A stretch of DNA of 43,344 bases, taken from positions 1 through 43,344 of the forward strand of contig QIGT01000495.1 in assembly GCA_003230835.1 (NCBI GenBank), given 5' to 3'. Of this stretch, positions 11,393-26,432 are shown piece after piece (position 1 is the stretch's first letter; every line of letters begins with the position of its first letter). Origin of the DNA: Gammaproteobacteria bacterium (GTDB taxonomy: Bacteria > Pseudomonadota > Gammaproteobacteria > Pseudomonadales > Azotimanducaceae). Below the pieces are notes generated by a model. It had not been told where the DNA came from, did no database searches, and saw only the letters and a program-made list of their open reading frames with translations. A program made the position numbers and the translations under genes.

Positions 11393-11872
11393 TTAGCCCT
11401 GGTTTTCGAGGCTGCGCTCATACTCAGATTGAAGTCGTAACGAGGCCAGCAGATGTTCGCAGATCGCACGTCCCACTTTGCGCTGTTCTAGTTTGCCCAT
11501 TTTCTTAGTGTGCACTGGGCTCTGCCGAATACCCTGACTAGACATCACCCTACCTCGGCGAACTCGCCCTTTGAGTGCTTTAGACAAGCGAATTGCGGTT
11601 TCCATGTGTCGATTGGCGTGAACGAGTGTTTGGGAAGCTCTATTTATGCTAGAGGCTCTTTTTATGCTAGAGGTGCTATTTGACGAGATTGAGCTCGAAA
11701 CGCTATCCGCACTTGACTCAAACAGTGAAAAGTTTTCGCCTATACCGATGTTTTTCTGTTTCAGGCTATCAACCTGCTTCAGCCTATCAACCTGCTTCAG
11801 GCTGGCAGCTTCGAAATCAGCCAAACTCACATCAGATACTTTTCTCGGATCTTGTCTAGCAACACTTTGCAT
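11393..11872 (-). CDS. Orphan protein under a LexA-like box; possible SOS gene
   Basis: I do not recognise this 159-residue protein. The N-terminal third carries short internal repeats (LKQVDRLKQVDSLKQK), a Ser-rich linker (SADSVSSSISSNSTSS) and a second small repeat (IKRASSINRAS). The C-terminal half is basic and helical (RLSKALKGRVRRGRVM to the end). There is no signal peptide or membrane segment. The start has a strong Shine-Dalgarno (AAGGAG, 8 nt before ATG). About 40 bp upstream of the start is a sequence matching the E. coli LexA consensus at 19 of 20 bases. Its length is like that of SulA, the SOS division inhibitor, but I see no SulA motifs. It is co-directional with clpB, with the box in the 58-bp gap. 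Confidence 0.7.
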   Translation of the reverse strand: MQSVARQDPRKVSDVSLADFEAASLKQVDRLKQVDSLKQKNIGIGENFSLFESSADSVSSSISSNSTSSIKRASSINRASQTLVHANRHMETAIRLSKALKGRVRRGRVMSSQGIRQSPVHTKKMGKLEQRKVGRAICEHLLASLRLQSEYERSLENQG

Positions 11873-11930: not shown

Positions 11931-14504
11931 TTACGGAGACTCAACCATAAACACGATCTGATCGTTTTCAACCGCTCCGTGAATATGCTCACCGTGGCTA
12001 AATCGACCATTAAGAATATCGTTGGCCAATGGATCTTCGACCAATTTCTGAAACGCTCGCTTCAATGGCCTAGCGCCGTAAATTGGATCGTAACCTTGCT
12101 CAGCGATTTTGCTCAGCGCCTGGGAAGTTAGGGTGAGCGTCAGTTCTTGTTCGGCAAGTCGCGCATTGAGGGCCTGCAATTGAAGCTGCGCAATTTCTCT
12201 AATCTGCGCTTGGTTAAGAGGGTCGAACACTACCATGTCATCAACTCGATTGATAAACTCTGGACGAAAATGCTCAGTCACTATACCCATCACCGCCTCT
12301 TTAATAAGATCGACCTGCCCATTTTCAGTCAGCGTTTGAATAACTTGAGAACCAAGATTCGAGGTCATCACCAAAACAGTGTTTCGAAAATCTACCGTGC
12401 GGCCATGCCCATCGGTAAGACGCCCGTCATCTAACACTTGTAACAATATGTTGAACACATCAGGGTGGGCTTTTTCTATCTCATCTAACAATATAAGGGA
12501 ATACGGTTTGCGCCTGACCGCCTCAGTCAAGTAACCACCTTCCTCGTAACCGACATATCCAGGCGGTGCACCAATCAAACGAGCCACAGAATGTTTCTCC
12601 ATAAACTCTGACATGTCGACCCGTATGATCGCCTCCCGACTGTCAAATAAAACCTCTGCCAAGGCTTTACACAACTCAGTTTTGCCTACGCCAGTTGGGC
12701 CCAAAAACATAAAAGATCCGTTTGGTCTATTTGGATCTGACAAACCAGCGCGAGAACGCCTCACCGCCTGGCTGACCAAGGCTATCGCTGGCTCTTGTCC
12801 GATCACTTGTTTATGTATGAGTGTTTCTAACTGAAGCAGTTTTTCTTTCTCTCCTTCCATCATTTTAGCCACGGGAATACCTGTCCAATGTGCAACCACT
12901 TCCGCAATCTCAGCTTCCATGACTTTGTTTCGCAGCAATGTTGGCTCAGCCCCCGCAACCGGCTGTTCTATTTTTCTTTCTAACTCGGGGATAATGCCGT
13001 ACTGCAGCTCCGACATACGAGCCAAATCACCAGTGCGCCTCGCCGCATCGAACTCAATTCGCGCTGCCTCGAGCTCTTCTTTGAAGTCTTGGGTTCCGCG
13101 CAAGGCGCTCTTTTCAGCACGCCAAACCTCATCAAGCACATCGTATTCGCGCTGTAGTTCACCAACAGAGGCTTTTAGTTCATCTAATCGTTGTCGACTT
13201 GCATCATCAGACTCTTTCTTCAGCGCTTCCATTTCCATCTGCTGTTGAATTAAGCGACGTTCCAGTTTGTCCATGCTCTCAGGTTTGGAATCCATCTCTA
13301 ACCGAATGCGACTTGCCGCCTCATCGATTAAATCAATGGCTTTGTCCGGCAATTGTCTATCCGTTATGTAGCGATGCGACAATTTCGCCGCTGCAACGAT
13401 GGCAGGGTCGGTAATATCCACCCCATGATGAACTTCATAGCGTTCTTTTAATCCGCGCAATATAGCGATGGTGTCTTCCAAGCTTGGCTCATCGACCTGT
13501 ACCTTTTGAAAGCGTCGCTCAAGGGCTGCATCTTTTTCAATGTAAAGGCGATACTCATCAAGTGTTGTCGCCCCGACACAGTGAAGTTCTCCTCGCGCCA
13601 GGGCCGGTTTAAGCATGTTTCCAGCATCCATTGCTCCATCAGCCTTGCCCGCACCCACCATGGTATGTAGTTCGTCTATAAATAGAATAACGTTGCCTTG
13701 TTGCTTCGAAAGATCGTTTAGAACCGCTTTCAACCGCTCCTCAAACTCGCCTCGAAATTTCGCGCCCGCTACTAAGGCAGCTAAATCGAGGGACAGTACC
13801 TTCTTGTTTTTAAGCGAGTCTGCAACCTCACCATTAACAATACGTTGCGCCAATCCTTCTACAATCGCAGTCTTACCAACACCGGGTTCACCGATGAGAA
13901 CTGGGTTGTTTTTCGTACGACGCTGCAACACTTGTACCGTTCGACGTATTTCGTCATCTCGACCAATGACCGGGTCTAGTTTTCCTAACGATGCTTGTTC
14001 AGTGAGATCAATCGTGTATTTAGCCAGCGCACCTTGTGTATCTTCGGCATTCGTCTCTGTCACTTTCTCTCCATTTCTTTGTACTTCTACCGCTGATGCT
14101 AAAGCACTTGTGTTTACACCTACTTGTTCAAACATACTTCGCAGCTGCGGATCTTCGACCAACGCCAACAGCACACGATCAAGCGCAACATAATCGTCGC
14201 CAGCTTTTTGCGCAGCCACATCAGCCTTGGCTAGAACTTTATGTAACTCCGGAGATACGCCTACTTCGCTACCCGCTGAACCAAGCTGGGGACGCGCCTG
14301 CAGACTTGCCTCTACTTTTGGCAGCAATTCCTCGACCCTACCCCCACTTCTCGCGACGAGTTGGGTTGCCAATTTATCTTGCGACTGCAGTAGGACGTGC
14401 AGGAGATGTACCGGCTCGACCTGGCTATGATCATGACCCAATGCCAGTGATTGAGCATCTGCTAAAGCGGCTTGCATTCTCTGGGTTAGTTTTTCAATTC
14501 TCAT
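11931..14504 (-). CDS. clpB: ATP-dependent chaperone ClpB
   Basis: ClpB is the cytosolic Hsp104-type disaggregase that works with DnaK to pull proteins out of aggregates. The 857-residue protein has the two-repeat N-domain, NBD1 with Walker A GEPGVGKT and Walker B VILFIDE, the long coiled-coil M-domain (about 400-520, e.g. [16 protein letters not shown]), and NBD2 with [10 protein letters not shown] and [10 protein letters not shown]. Length and domain order are standard, and there is no ClpP-binding IGF loop as in ClpA/ClpX. A sigma32-like promoter lies upstream. An internal start for the short form of ClpB near the end of the N-domain is usual in the family, but I did not verify one here. 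Confidence 0.97.
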
Positions 14505-14546: not shown

Positions 14547-14574
14547 CAATGTGGTCGATTCCGACAATTTCAAT
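14547..14574 (-). promoter_or_regulatory. Sigma32-like heat-shock promoter of clpB
   Basis: Reading the minus strand, ATTGAA is followed by 14 bp and then CCACATTG, close to the heat-shock consensus CTTGAA-N13/15-CCCCATnT. It lies about 43-70 bp before the clpB ATG, in the 84-bp divergent gap shared with the PilZ gene. Heat-shock control of clpB is general in gammaproteobacteria. Confidence 0.55.
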
Positions 14575-14588
14575 AGAAATAACCCAAT

Positions 14589-15347
14589 ATGGAACAACGC
14601 GAAAACCCCCGCATCCACGTGCCATTAGTGGTGGAAATTACTCATCCCTCGTTAGGAACAATACGCTCAACGGCAAAAGACATTTCAGCTGGCGGAGTAT
14701 TTATTGGGCTGCAGGCTCACAAGCTAAGTGTCGGAGCGAAATTACGTGTCCGTTTGATGGGATCTCACTCAACCGACACCCAAATTTCGCCAACGGTGGA
14801 GATGAAAGTAGCCCATGTTGCAGAAGAAGGTCTCGGTCTTGCGTTTGTGAATCGAACTGCCGAACACCTGTGGCGCAGCGTAGAACGACTGCGCAAGGAG
14901 CTACAAATAGGCCAGGATTACTTCCAAGTGTATCAATGCGCGGTCATAACTCACATCATCAAAGGGGTACTGGTGGTTCAGAAACACGGGAAATGGATAT
15001 TTCCTGGGCACTATCTTGTCGTTAAAGAGAATCCAAAACAAGCGCTTGAACTATTTATTAAAGACAACCTCGGAATCTCGGATCCAAACGAAGTTGCGCC
15101 GATTAAAATAGACGGTGCCGAAGATGTATTCATTCCAGAAGCGGCAACCTATACCGTCTATTTCCATATGACAACCCAACAAAACAGCCCTACGCTAAAT
15201 TCAAAAAAGGCCATTGCCGGATACAAAGATTGGCGCTGGGTTAACAAAGCACGAGATGCTAACGAAATCACTTTTGCCACAGAACAACAACGTCGTATTG
15301 CGGCTTCAGTTTTACAGGCACAATTGGTTAATACTGAAAAATCCTAG
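14589..15347 (+). CDS. PilZ domain fused to a degenerate Nudix-like domain
   Basis: This is a 252-residue protein with two parts. Residues 1-110 are a PilZ domain with the c-di-GMP-binding motifs intact: RENPR (RxxxR) at residue 4 and DISAGG (D/NxSxxG) near residue 34. Residues about 115-252 look like a Nudix hydrolase fold: AVITHIIKGVLVVQKHGKWIFPGHYLVV, then the region of the Nudix helix ending DNLGI. However, the Nudix box GX5EX7REUXEEXGU is not kept, as the REUXEE part reads LFIKDN, so diphosphate hydrolysis is unlikely. I infer a c-di-GMP receptor with a ligand- or protein-binding Nudix-like output. It is divergent from clpB and overlaps the end of comEC convergently by 20 bp. Confidence 0.72.
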   Translation: MEQRENPRIHVPLVVEITHPSLGTIRSTAKDISAGGVFIGLQAHKLSVGAKLRVRLMGSHSTDTQISPTVEMKVAHVAEEGLGLAFVNRTAEHLWRSVERLRKELQIGQDYFQVYQCAVITHIIKGVLVVQKHGKWIFPGHYLVVKENPKQALELFIKDNLGISDPNEVAPIKIDGAEDVFIPEAATYTVYFHMTTQQNSPTLNSKKAIAGYKDWRWVNKARDANEITFATEQQRRIAASVLQAQLVNTEKS

Positions 15348-17421
15348 CCCGAGATGTTGAAACCACCTGTGGAAATTGACTAGACCAACTCACCGCGCCA
15401 CTTAATCCGGTCGTATAAGGTATTGCGCCTTGTTTGACATACCGCTCAAGCACAGATTCACGAGGGTGACCATACTGGCTGTCTTTTGCAGCGCTAAATA
15501 CGACGAAGGTGGCATCTATGTGCTCTACAAACCTCTGGTGGGACGACGTTTCGCTACCATGGTGTGGAGCAACAACAAGGTCTATGCCTTGGGGTAGCTG
15601 CTGCAAAAACTCAAGTTCAATTGCCTGACCAATGTCCCCAGCGAAATAAGCCTGGGTGCGGGCATTACTCACTACCACGGTACAGGACAGGTCGTTCTTG
15701 GTTGCAAAAGCGTCATCACGTGCCGTAGTCAAGGTTGAAAACATTACTTTATCCCACACCCAAGTAGTTTCGTTGGAACATCCGTGATTACGCTCGATCA
15801 ACCAGGCCGATGGGAACTCTAATTGAACCGCATCCAAGCCACCCGCATGATCGATGTCTGCGTGACTGATGACAATGCCGTCTAGTTGATCTGGTCCTGT
15901 CTGTTTCACTGCAGGTACCACTACCGCAGCACCGGTATCAAAACCACTCTTAAAGCGCGGACCAGCATCAATGAGCAGCCGGTGCCGATGGGTATCGACA
16001 ATGACAGCACTTCCCTGCCCAACATCTAGTACCGTAACTCGAAACTCTCCAGGTGGGATGCTGACGGAATTTGGCATCAACAGAATGCTACAAACTAATC
16101 CACTCACCAACCTGCGAAACCAGCCAATGGGCAGTAGCAGCCCCACAAAACCCATACTTGCCACCGCCACCTTCCCCAGTTGGAAAAAACCTAGAGAAAG
16201 ATCGATATCAGATATCACAAGCAACCATTCCAGCACCACACTCATGGAAATATCCGCGACCCACAGTAACTGCTGGCTAAGTAGTGTCGACGCTCCTAAC
16301 AAGTTCAGTTGCATACCAAGCATTGCCGTCGGAATAGTAATAGAGCTCATGAGTGGTACCGCAACAATATTGGCCAATGGGCTAATCAGAGGTACTGTGT
16401 TGACCATGAACCCCAGCCATGGTGTCAGTCCAAAAAACAGAGCGACTTGGCTCAAAACAAGCGCGCTAACCCACGAAACAGCTCGCCAGCGATGTACAAA
16501 CACGAACAGCAAGCAGGCTACAGCAATATAAGAAAACCAAAACCCCTGTTGCAGCACGATATTGGGTTGTAGCAGGATAGCAACCGCAAATACGGCAAAC
16601 AAACCACGCCACCAAGAAATTCGGCGCAGCGCGAGTAGCGCAAAAACAAGTAAGCCGTAACCTAATGCGGCGCGAAACACCGGTGGCTGCAAGCCACTTT
16701 GCCAAGCAAAAAGGAAAACCGCTAGAATGGAAAATATCAGCGCAACTTGTTTGGCGGTAAACCCCCAAGGTTGCCAGGTTAGTAAACGCAGCACCCCAAA
16801 CAGTATGCCAAAAGCCATGCCTGCATATATTCCCACATGTAAGCCCGAAACAACCATGAGATGGACCGTTCCGGTAGCGCGAAATAGCCCCCAAGACGTA
16901 TCTGTAACGCCTTGCTGATCGCCCAGCGCAATGGCACGCAGCAAACCCCAATTTTGATAACGAGTGGCTAACTCATGCTGAAAACTGGAACTGGACGATG
17001 CTTGTACATCTGATATTTTCTTAACGTAACCCGTAGCCGCATAGCCCTTCCCCATCAACCACCGCTGATAGTCAAATCCACCCGGATTCTTCATTCCCCA
17101 CAGAGGCCGAAGCTGGAGCCGAAAATGTGCGCGTGTGCCCTTGGCCAGCTCCTGTTTTGGGTAGTACCAGGATACCCGAACGATGCGACCCGCCAGCTCA
17201 ATACAACTAGATGAGCCATTGCTGTCACTACGAATGTCCAATGTAACCATATGCGGTTGACGTTGGCGCAGCGCAACTATTTCACCTTCAAGCTCGTGAA
17301 CTGCGGTCGCAAAACAATGCCCAGGCAAGCTATGGTGTGTGTACCAAAGACTAATACGAAGTACAATAACAGCACAAACAAGCATCAACACCCAAGGCGC
17401 TTTGGTCTTGCTCATTAGCAA
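15328..17421 (-). CDS. comEC: ComEC/Rec2-family DNA uptake channel
   Basis: ComEC carries single-stranded DNA across the inner membrane in natural transformation. The 697-residue protein has an N-terminal membrane segment, an OB-like DUF4131 region (about 40-150), the polytopic Competence domain (about 180-440, with VSGLHVGIYAGMAF), and a C-terminal metallo-beta-lactamase-like domain with VLDVGQGSAVIVD and HADIDHAGG, the metal-binding HxDxDHxGG motif. This architecture is complete and suggests a functional channel, although no pilus genes are in view. It diverges from the DUF2062 gene with 74 bp between them. Confidence 0.94.
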   Translation of the reverse strand: MLMSKTKAPWVLMLVCAVIVLRISLWYTHHSLPGHCFATAVHELEGEIVALRQRQPHMVTLDIRSDSNGSSSCIELAGRIVRVSWYYPKQELAKGTRAHFRLQLRPLWGMKNPGGFDYQRWLMGKGYAATGYVKKISDVQASSSSSFQHELATRYQNWGLLRAIALGDQQGVTDTSWGLFRATGTVHLMVVSGLHVGIYAGMAFGILFGVLRLLTWQPWGFTAKQVALIFSILAVFLFAWQSGLQPPVFRAALGYGLLVFALLALRRISWWRGLFAVFAVAILLQPNIVLQQGFWFSYIAVACLLFVFVHRWRAVSWVSALVLSQVALFFGLTPWLGFMVNTVPLISPLANIVAVPLMSSITIPTAMLGMQLNLLGASTLLSQQLLWVADISMSVVLEWLLVISDIDLSLGFFQLGKVAVASMGFVGLLLPIGWFRRLVSGLVCSILLMPNSVSIPPGEFRVTVLDVGQGSAVIVDTHRHRLLIDAGPRFKSGFDTGAAVVVPAVKQTGPDQLDGIVISHADIDHAGGLDAVQLEFPSAWLIERNHGCSNETTWVWDKVMFSTLTTARDDAFATKNDLSCTVVVSNARTQAYFAGDIGQAIELEFLQQLPQGIDLVVAPHHGSETSSHQRFVEHIDATFVVFSAAKDSQYGHPRESVLERYVKQGAIPYTTGLSGAVSWSSQFPQVVSTSRARIFQY

Positions 17422-21227: not shown

Positions 21228-21767
21228 ATGGAAAACGACAAACGCCAATCTTTGCGCCTGTCTTTGAGTTTGCCCTTTGCTTGGCACTCATTTAGTGAAT
21301 TGCCTTGCCGGATCGAGTTGGAGAGTCATTTCAGCCAAAACCAGCTATCTCATACCACGCAACGCCTAGGTCACTTGCGGACCATAGATGAAGAGCTTCA
21401 AAAAGCAATCTCTGGGATTGACAACCTGCAAGTTCAACACGTACTGCGTCTGCTTGATCAGAAATACAGTTTGCTCACGCAGAGCTTCACTTTCGCTACG
21501 CCTGCCTGCCAAGACATTGTATTGAGTTTAGAGGGCGTTAGCTTCTCATGCGACACGCAGTTTAGCCGTGACAACGCATTGGGTATACACATTGTCTTGG
21601 ATGGTTACCATTTCTTGAGTTCAGCCCAGGTTAGCCACCGCACGCAGCATCTAGACAAACAAATGTACCGTTGCGGTGTTAGATTCTGCGACCTTTCCCA
21701 AGCGGATGCAAAATGCTTATCACGTTACTTGATGCGCTGCGCCAGTCGAAGCAGTCTGGTGAGCTGA
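21228..21767 (+). CDS. PilZ-domain protein with partly degenerate binding motif
   Basis: A 179-residue protein. The N-terminus has RQSLR, fitting the RxxxR c-di-GMP motif, followed by an unusual inserted helix-rich stretch (about 45-85). The second motif reads VLSLEG, so the xSxxG part is present but the leading Asp/Asn is replaced by Val. The C-terminal strand and helix (YRCGVRFCDLSQADAKCLSRYLM) is the usual PilZ ending. From memory Pseudomonas has a PilZ protein at the same place between lolC and sth. The ligand affinity is uncertain because of the Val. The 3' end overlaps sthA by 48 bp on the opposite strand. Confidence 0.78.
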   Translation: MENDKRQSLRLSLSLPFAWHSFSELPCRIELESHFSQNQLSHTTQRLGHLRTIDEELQKAISGIDNLQVQHVLRLLDQKYSLLTQSFTFATPACQDIVLSLEGVSFSCDTQFSRDNALGIHIVLDGYHFLSSAQVSHRTQHLDKQMYRCGVRFCDLSQADAKCLSRYLMRCASRSSLVS

Positions 21768-26177: not shown

Positions 26178-26432
26178 TCAACCATTCCCGGACACTTTCA
26201 TTTCAGACAGTTCGTATTTGACCGGCGACATATCTTGGTTGGTAGTGTGTAGTCGATCGTTGTTGTAGTAACGCATATAATCCGCTACGTCTTGCTTCAT
26301 GTGGACTCGTGTTGGCCGTGCGTATCTGCTGAATGCAGCATGACATCTGCTTTTGGCGTCAGTTAAAAAGGGGTGATTACCTGCCCAGTCATCATCTAGA
26401 TACGTTTCTTCAAAAGCTGCAGCGTATGCCAA
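26178..26432 (-). pseudogene. IS3-family transposase, C-terminal remnant
   Basis: The last 45 or so residues, VHMKQDVADYMRYYNNDRLHTT followed by NQDMSPVKYE, are the C-terminal end of an IS3-family OrfB integrase (the rve_3 segment). The preceding 40 residues do not look like the expected transposase core, so the 5' part is probably foreign sequence joined in frame. GTGTCCGGGAATGGTTGACC overlapping the stop (about 26176-26195) may be the terminal inverted repeat. No opposite end was found in the window. Confidence 0.7.

Follow-up and report, generated by a model that had tools for sequence, protein, structure and literature searches.

A PilZ domain joined to a Nudix-fold domain without catalytic glutamates in a family of Pseudomonadales

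The window analysed here is a stretch of 43,344 nucleotides from a gammaproteobacterium of the Azotimanducaceae (contig QIGT01000495.1). It carries an open reading frame of 252 amino acids with an ATG start (positions 14589..15347, + strand), whose product joins a PilZ c-di-GMP sensor domain to a Nudix-fold domain lacking the cutting residues; we refer to this gene as PZN (PilZ and pseudo-Nudix). As the original prediction had noted, PZN diverges from clpB (11931..14504, − strand), from which it is separated by an intergenic gap of 84 bp. On the other side lies the convergent comEC (15328..17421, − strand; Pfam Competence and Lactamase_B), the 3′ end of which is overlapped by PZN over 20 bp. 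Searches of the genus, order and family, together with genome contigs, yielded 36 homologues, giving an alignment of 37 sequences. PZN was found between clpB and comEC in all relatives with readable flanks, and the wider order usually included galU past clpB and DUF2062-lolEDC past comEC. We also observed a small open reading frame without a Pfam match between galU and clpB (11393-11872, − strand), whose homologues occupy the equivalent position in several relatives. Further along the window, a second PilZ gene (21228-21767, + strand; 179 aa) diverges from lolC, and its Pfam PilZ match falls exactly at the cut-off of 22.5 bits; we take its position to be that of PA2989 in the P. aeruginosa gene order. 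A short open reading frame at 26178-26432 (− strand), with a C-terminus resembling by eye the end of an IS3-type transposase, is probably an insertion-sequence remnant.

The clpB-PZN intergenic region contains a sigma-32-like promoter of clpB (14549..14574, − strand), made up of ATTGAAA (14568-14574), a 13 nt spacer and CCACAT (14549-14554), which scored above all 100 shuffles. Of 22 clpB-PZN intergenic regions, the window included, 20 had an element of this type (near TTGAAA, 13 nt, CCnCAT) that pointed toward clpB and kept the 13-nt spacing. When the promoter scan was directed toward PZN, the best sigma-32-like site was at shuffle level. Directly downstream of PZN and in the same direction, a gene for a DUF2244 integral membrane protein (Pfam) was present in 24 of the 37 PZN loci (L016-L020, L029-L035 and others) and missing in the window. 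Sister genomes without PZN kept the clpB-DUF2244-comEC order, and we rejected DUF2244 as an obligatory partner because it is missing in the window and other loci and persists where PZN has been lost.

Of the receptors for c-di-GMP, PilZ proteins are the best known. The PilZ domain of PZN (residues 2-93; 14592..14867, + strand) matched Pfam PF07238 with an E-value of 3.7e-10 and a score of 40.5 bits against a cut-off of 22.5; nothing besides PilZ was returned by Pfam for the window protein. No YcgR domain was found in PZN by Pfam, and its PilZ domain is N-terminal, unlike that of the flagellar brakes YcgR/FlgZ, which is C-terminal. Both signature motifs proposed originally are indeed complete. 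In the RxxxR motif, R4-E-N-P-R8 (14598..14612, + strand), both arginines were kept in 36 of the 36 relatives having the N-terminus. The DxSxxG motif, D31-I-S-A-G-G36 (14679..14696, + strand), was kept as D/NxSxxG in 36 of 37 relatives, with D or N at position 31 in all 37, S33 in 36 and G36 in all 37. Foldseek matched the barrel fold to PilZ structures with c-di-GMP (8u0i at a TMt of 0.77, 4xrn and 4rt0), and its matches included PA0012 with c-di-GMP (8u0i) and the Alg44 PilZ domain.

The second half of the protein (residues 110-252; 14916..15344, + strand) was identified as a Nudix-fold domain by AlphaFold2, Foldseek, Pfam in relatives and hhalign. Taken alone, the C-terminus of the window protein matched no Pfam family, and NCBIfam offered no more than a weak MutT hint (E 0.12). 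Among relatives scanned singly, Pfam NUDIX matched 23 of 29 (best E 4.3e-7), and single C-terminal domains reached an E-value of 1e-7 and 32 bits against the Pfam cut-off of 21.1. Profiles of the PZN family retrieved ordinary Nudix hydrolases, some encoded in other genomes and some in that of the window, and Pfam confirmed two of them. In hhalign, the PZN Nudix half aligned with the retrieved Nudix proteins at 97.8% and E 1e-12, and when PDB sequences were searched with the PZN domain by hmmsearch, every protein returned either was a Nudix protein or contained a Nudix domain (best E 1e-5). AlphaFold2, run on the 37-sequence family alignment, gave a mean pLDDT of 88.4 and a pTM of 0.80 for the whole protein; the family alignment was needed, as the single sequence reached a pLDDT of 36. 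This fold test is independent of the Nudix guess because the alignment contained no separate Nudix hydrolase. Against the PDB, Foldseek returned for the Nudix half NrtR with ADP-ribose (3gz8), MutT2, Ap6A hydrolase, RppH and others, at TMt values of 0.64-0.77 for MutT2, Ap6A hydrolase, NrtR and others, and returned PilZ/c-di-GMP structures for the other half. The predicted fold and the profile, hhalign and PDB searches thus agree with the Nudix-like reading of residues 110-252, and the outcome that would have refuted the original prediction, a different fold for this half, did not occur. The product ends with this domain and its C-terminal helix, and no further domain was seen by Pfam or in the AlphaFold2 model.

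We then aligned the Nudix box, GX5EX7REUXEEXGU, placing the first G of the box at residue 141. The degraded box spans residues 141-163 (HYLVVKENPKQALELFIKDNLGI; 15009..15077, + strand), and the REUXEE positions of the window protein are occupied by L155, F156, I157, K158, D159 and N160. None of the 37 sequences had Glu at box position 15, which held Phe, Tyr, Met or some other residue instead, in line with the claim that the catalytic glutamates are missing; Arg14 and the other two box glutamates (Glu18/19) were unconserved across the same set. One relative (L074) retained PGG and one box Glu. The Nudix half nevertheless has invariant landmarks (L128, G134, W136, P139 and W217); W136, P139, W217, F229 and the hinge are fixed or nearly so across the family, and the same holds for D110, Q113, E184 and R235, although no catalytic reason for this is obvious. 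The interdomain hinge, R-x2-L-x2-G-x-DYFQ (residues 102-115; 14892..14933, + strand), is the most conserved segment, with a mean conservation of 0.79 compared with 0.63 for PilZ and 0.49 for the remaining Nudix half. The former catalytic helix (0.43) and the loop following it (0.31) are among the least conserved parts. Relative to the nearest relative (93% identical), dN/dS was 0.12 for the Nudix half and 0.10 for PilZ, values that describe one species pair. The absence of Glu15 from every sequence indicates that box loss is ancestral, and family-wide loss together with purifying selection (dN/dS 0.12) points to a maintained pseudoenzyme rather than a decaying one, consistent with the reuse of a Nudix fold that had been suggested at the outset.

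Next, we examined the distribution of PZN. The full-length gene was present in 37 of 207 genomes of the window's GTDB-type family, one Pseudomonadales family; sampling 369 genomes across the class and 299 across the phylum brought no additional full-length PZN to light. One weak hit, in L013, contained in-frame stops and was dismissed as spurious. One genome with 9 GGDEF matches carries a degraded PZN copy consisting of Nudix-like sequence only (L111, 1750-2226, − strand). Separately, a PilZ gene whose Nudix-like C-terminus is more degraded was observed between hisC and a zinc-ribbon gene (L069, 5264-5983; L160, 4764-5480), and a PilZ plus Nudix-like copy at the same site was split by a frame change (L161, 4226-5019); these three belong to one genus of another Pseudomonadales family.

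In the window genome, 12 matches to GGDEF and 5 to PilZ were counted. Within the family, all 37 PZN carriers had at least six GGDEF matches and PZN was present in none of the 126 members with fewer than six (Fisher p 1.4e-18, a descriptive value, as species are non-independent and several genomes incomplete, and in which GGDEF counts near 16 per genome mean at least that many). A further 44 GGDEF-rich family members were without PZN. Within the genus, carriers measured 4.0-6.0 Mb and non-carriers 1.6-3.4 Mb, so that co-occurrence is confounded with genome reduction; PilZ domains were confined there to the nine PZN carriers and two other genomes. Because PZN follows GGDEF content while clpB-DUF2244-comEC persists without it, PZN appears to be tied to c-di-GMP and not to its neighbours. 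The intact motifs and this strict co-occurrence with GGDEF-rich genomes lend indirect support to control by c-di-GMP. We rejected a flagellar role, as flagellin was found in most non-carriers of the genus and gave no match in the window genome and several carriers. Strong tandem pilT-family matches occurred in all nine genus carriers, in G027 and in G003 (one broken and one intact copy), and most non-carriers of the genus were without them. This pattern, which is likewise confounded with genome size, raises the possibility that the output of PZN is twitching or surface behaviour and is offered as a lead only.

We propose, with a probability of about 0.7, that PZN is a soluble cytosolic c-di-GMP effector that uses its pseudo-Nudix domain as a binding module. 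Judging from the conserved motifs and the structural relatives, the PilZ domain would use R4xxxR8 and D31xSxxG36 to bind c-di-GMP. Binding would move the Arg loop at the N-terminus and, by way of the hinge R102-L105-G108-D110-Y-F-Q, which hardly varies, reposition the Nudix-fold domain, such that engagement of its partner changes with c-di-GMP; the conserved hinge could, however, be structural rather than allosteric. The Nudix-fold domain very probably does not hydrolyse nucleotides, because the catalytic glutamates are absent. As to what it binds, a protein partner falls a little short of an even chance, and a small nucleotide or NAD-type ligand is possible but doubtful; we rank the protein partner higher because variability within the family is greatest in the former catalytic helix and in the loop that follows. 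Such a partner is probably encoded elsewhere in the genome, as no neighbouring gene matches the pattern of PZN presence and absence.

Several other readings were weighed against this effector. The pseudo-Nudix pocket might bind a nucleotide metabolite such as ADP-ribose or NAD and integrate it with c-di-GMP, making PZN a coincidence detector. NrtR with ADP-ribose (3gz8) is among the best structural matches of the Nudix half, the NrtR/AraR domains have lost the box yet kept ligand binding, and the Nudix fold of PZN is under purifying selection. The NrtR match is unspecific, however, since many Nudix enzymes reached similar Foldseek scores, and the low conservation of the former catalytic helix and its loop also argues against this reading, which we consider unlikely. 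Retained catalysis, as a residual or non-canonical Nudix enzyme, would fit the intact fold and the PGG and single box Glu of L074, but the universal absence of Glu15 and the lack of conservation of the other two glutamates leave it hardly credible.

Alternatively, signalling could proceed through PilZ alone, with the Nudix half serving only as a structural or dimerisation appendage. Many single-domain PilZ proteins of ~90-130 aa occur in the same order, and PA0012 is reported to work in this form (PMC10912698). Yet a PilZ-only version was not seen at the PZN locus across 37 species, the degraded copy in L111 kept the Nudix-like part, and D110, Q113, E184 and R235 are held fixed or nearly so, which together make an appendage rather improbable. 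A link to ClpB or the heat-shock response was implied by the divergence from clpB in the original prediction, and is hinted at by the Myxococcus PilZ-DnaK proteins. Adjacency to clpB is conserved in the loci read, and the heat-stress c-di-GMP system CdbS/CsdK provides a precedent (PMC10313047). This precedent, however, joins PilZ to DnaK and not to Nudix, the sigma-32-like promoter faces clpB only, and clpB remains in sister genomes that have lost PZN. We therefore did not retain the implied link, rejected heat-shock control of PZN as a default, and regard a heat-shock factor as very unlikely. Overall, the effector with a pseudo-Nudix binding module remains our preferred reading.

A recent review points to PilZ domains combined with poorly defined domains as a source of new receptors (PMC12564702). 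The PZN family supplies a candidate of this kind: it has ~37 orthologues, its fold is predicted with confidence, its locus is fixed, and natural loss variants exist. It also offers what is probably a clear example of a Nudix enzyme converted into a binding module beside a second-messenger sensor. NCBIfam contained no model naming the protein. No described PilZ-Nudix protein was found in the literature searched, which was covered by titles and term counts, with few subscription journals, and in which a description may have gone unseen; by the same titles and counts, papers containing both "PilZ" and "Nudix" treat the two apart. Within that literature, PZN is a previously unnamed receptor design, a probable PilZ effector in which the pseudo-Nudix half would serve for output or sensing. 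It makes two ideas directly testable, namely the ligand of the pseudo-Nudix domain and the control of that binding by c-di-GMP. If the coincidence-detector reading were true, biofilm-type signalling would be linked to metabolic state in one cytosolic protein.

Among known systems, PA0012/TssZ of Pseudomonas aeruginosa (PDB 8u0i) is the closest PDB sequence to PZN (E 4.7e-4) and a top PilZ structural match. It shares the N-terminal PilZ barrel with c-di-GMP motifs but is a single domain of 90 aa without a second domain; it is described as acting on type VI secretion together with HinK (PMC10912698). The best Foldseek E-value (1.7e-8), in an alignment spanning both PZN halves, came from SMa0793 of Sinorhizobium meliloti (PDB 3rh7), whose deposited annotation is putative oxidoreductase, and its TM-score of 0.34 and 9% identity indicate a resemblance in fold order at most. 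Box-dead Nudix domains are established as effector-binding modules in NrtR and AraR (PMC6800001, PMC4666351), which share with PZN the Nudix fold, an impaired GX5EX7REUXEEXGU box and a two-domain architecture. NrtR and AraR differ from PZN in their C-terminal winged-helix DNA-binding domain and in their ligand, ADP-ribose or L-arabinose; no such DNA-binding domain was found in PZN, where the partner domain is the N-terminal PilZ. Human TRPM2 likewise holds a Nudix-box-dead domain, NUDT9-H, within a signalling protein (PMC6461439), but is a eukaryotic ion channel gated by ADP-ribose and without a c-di-GMP part. Finally, CsdK1/CsdK2 (PilZ-DnaK) and MrkH (PilZ with a DNA-binding domain) resemble PZN in coupling PilZ to an unusual second domain, but where PZN has a Nudix fold, the former carry a DnaK chaperone and the latter binds DNA through its second domain (PMC10313047, PMC12564702).
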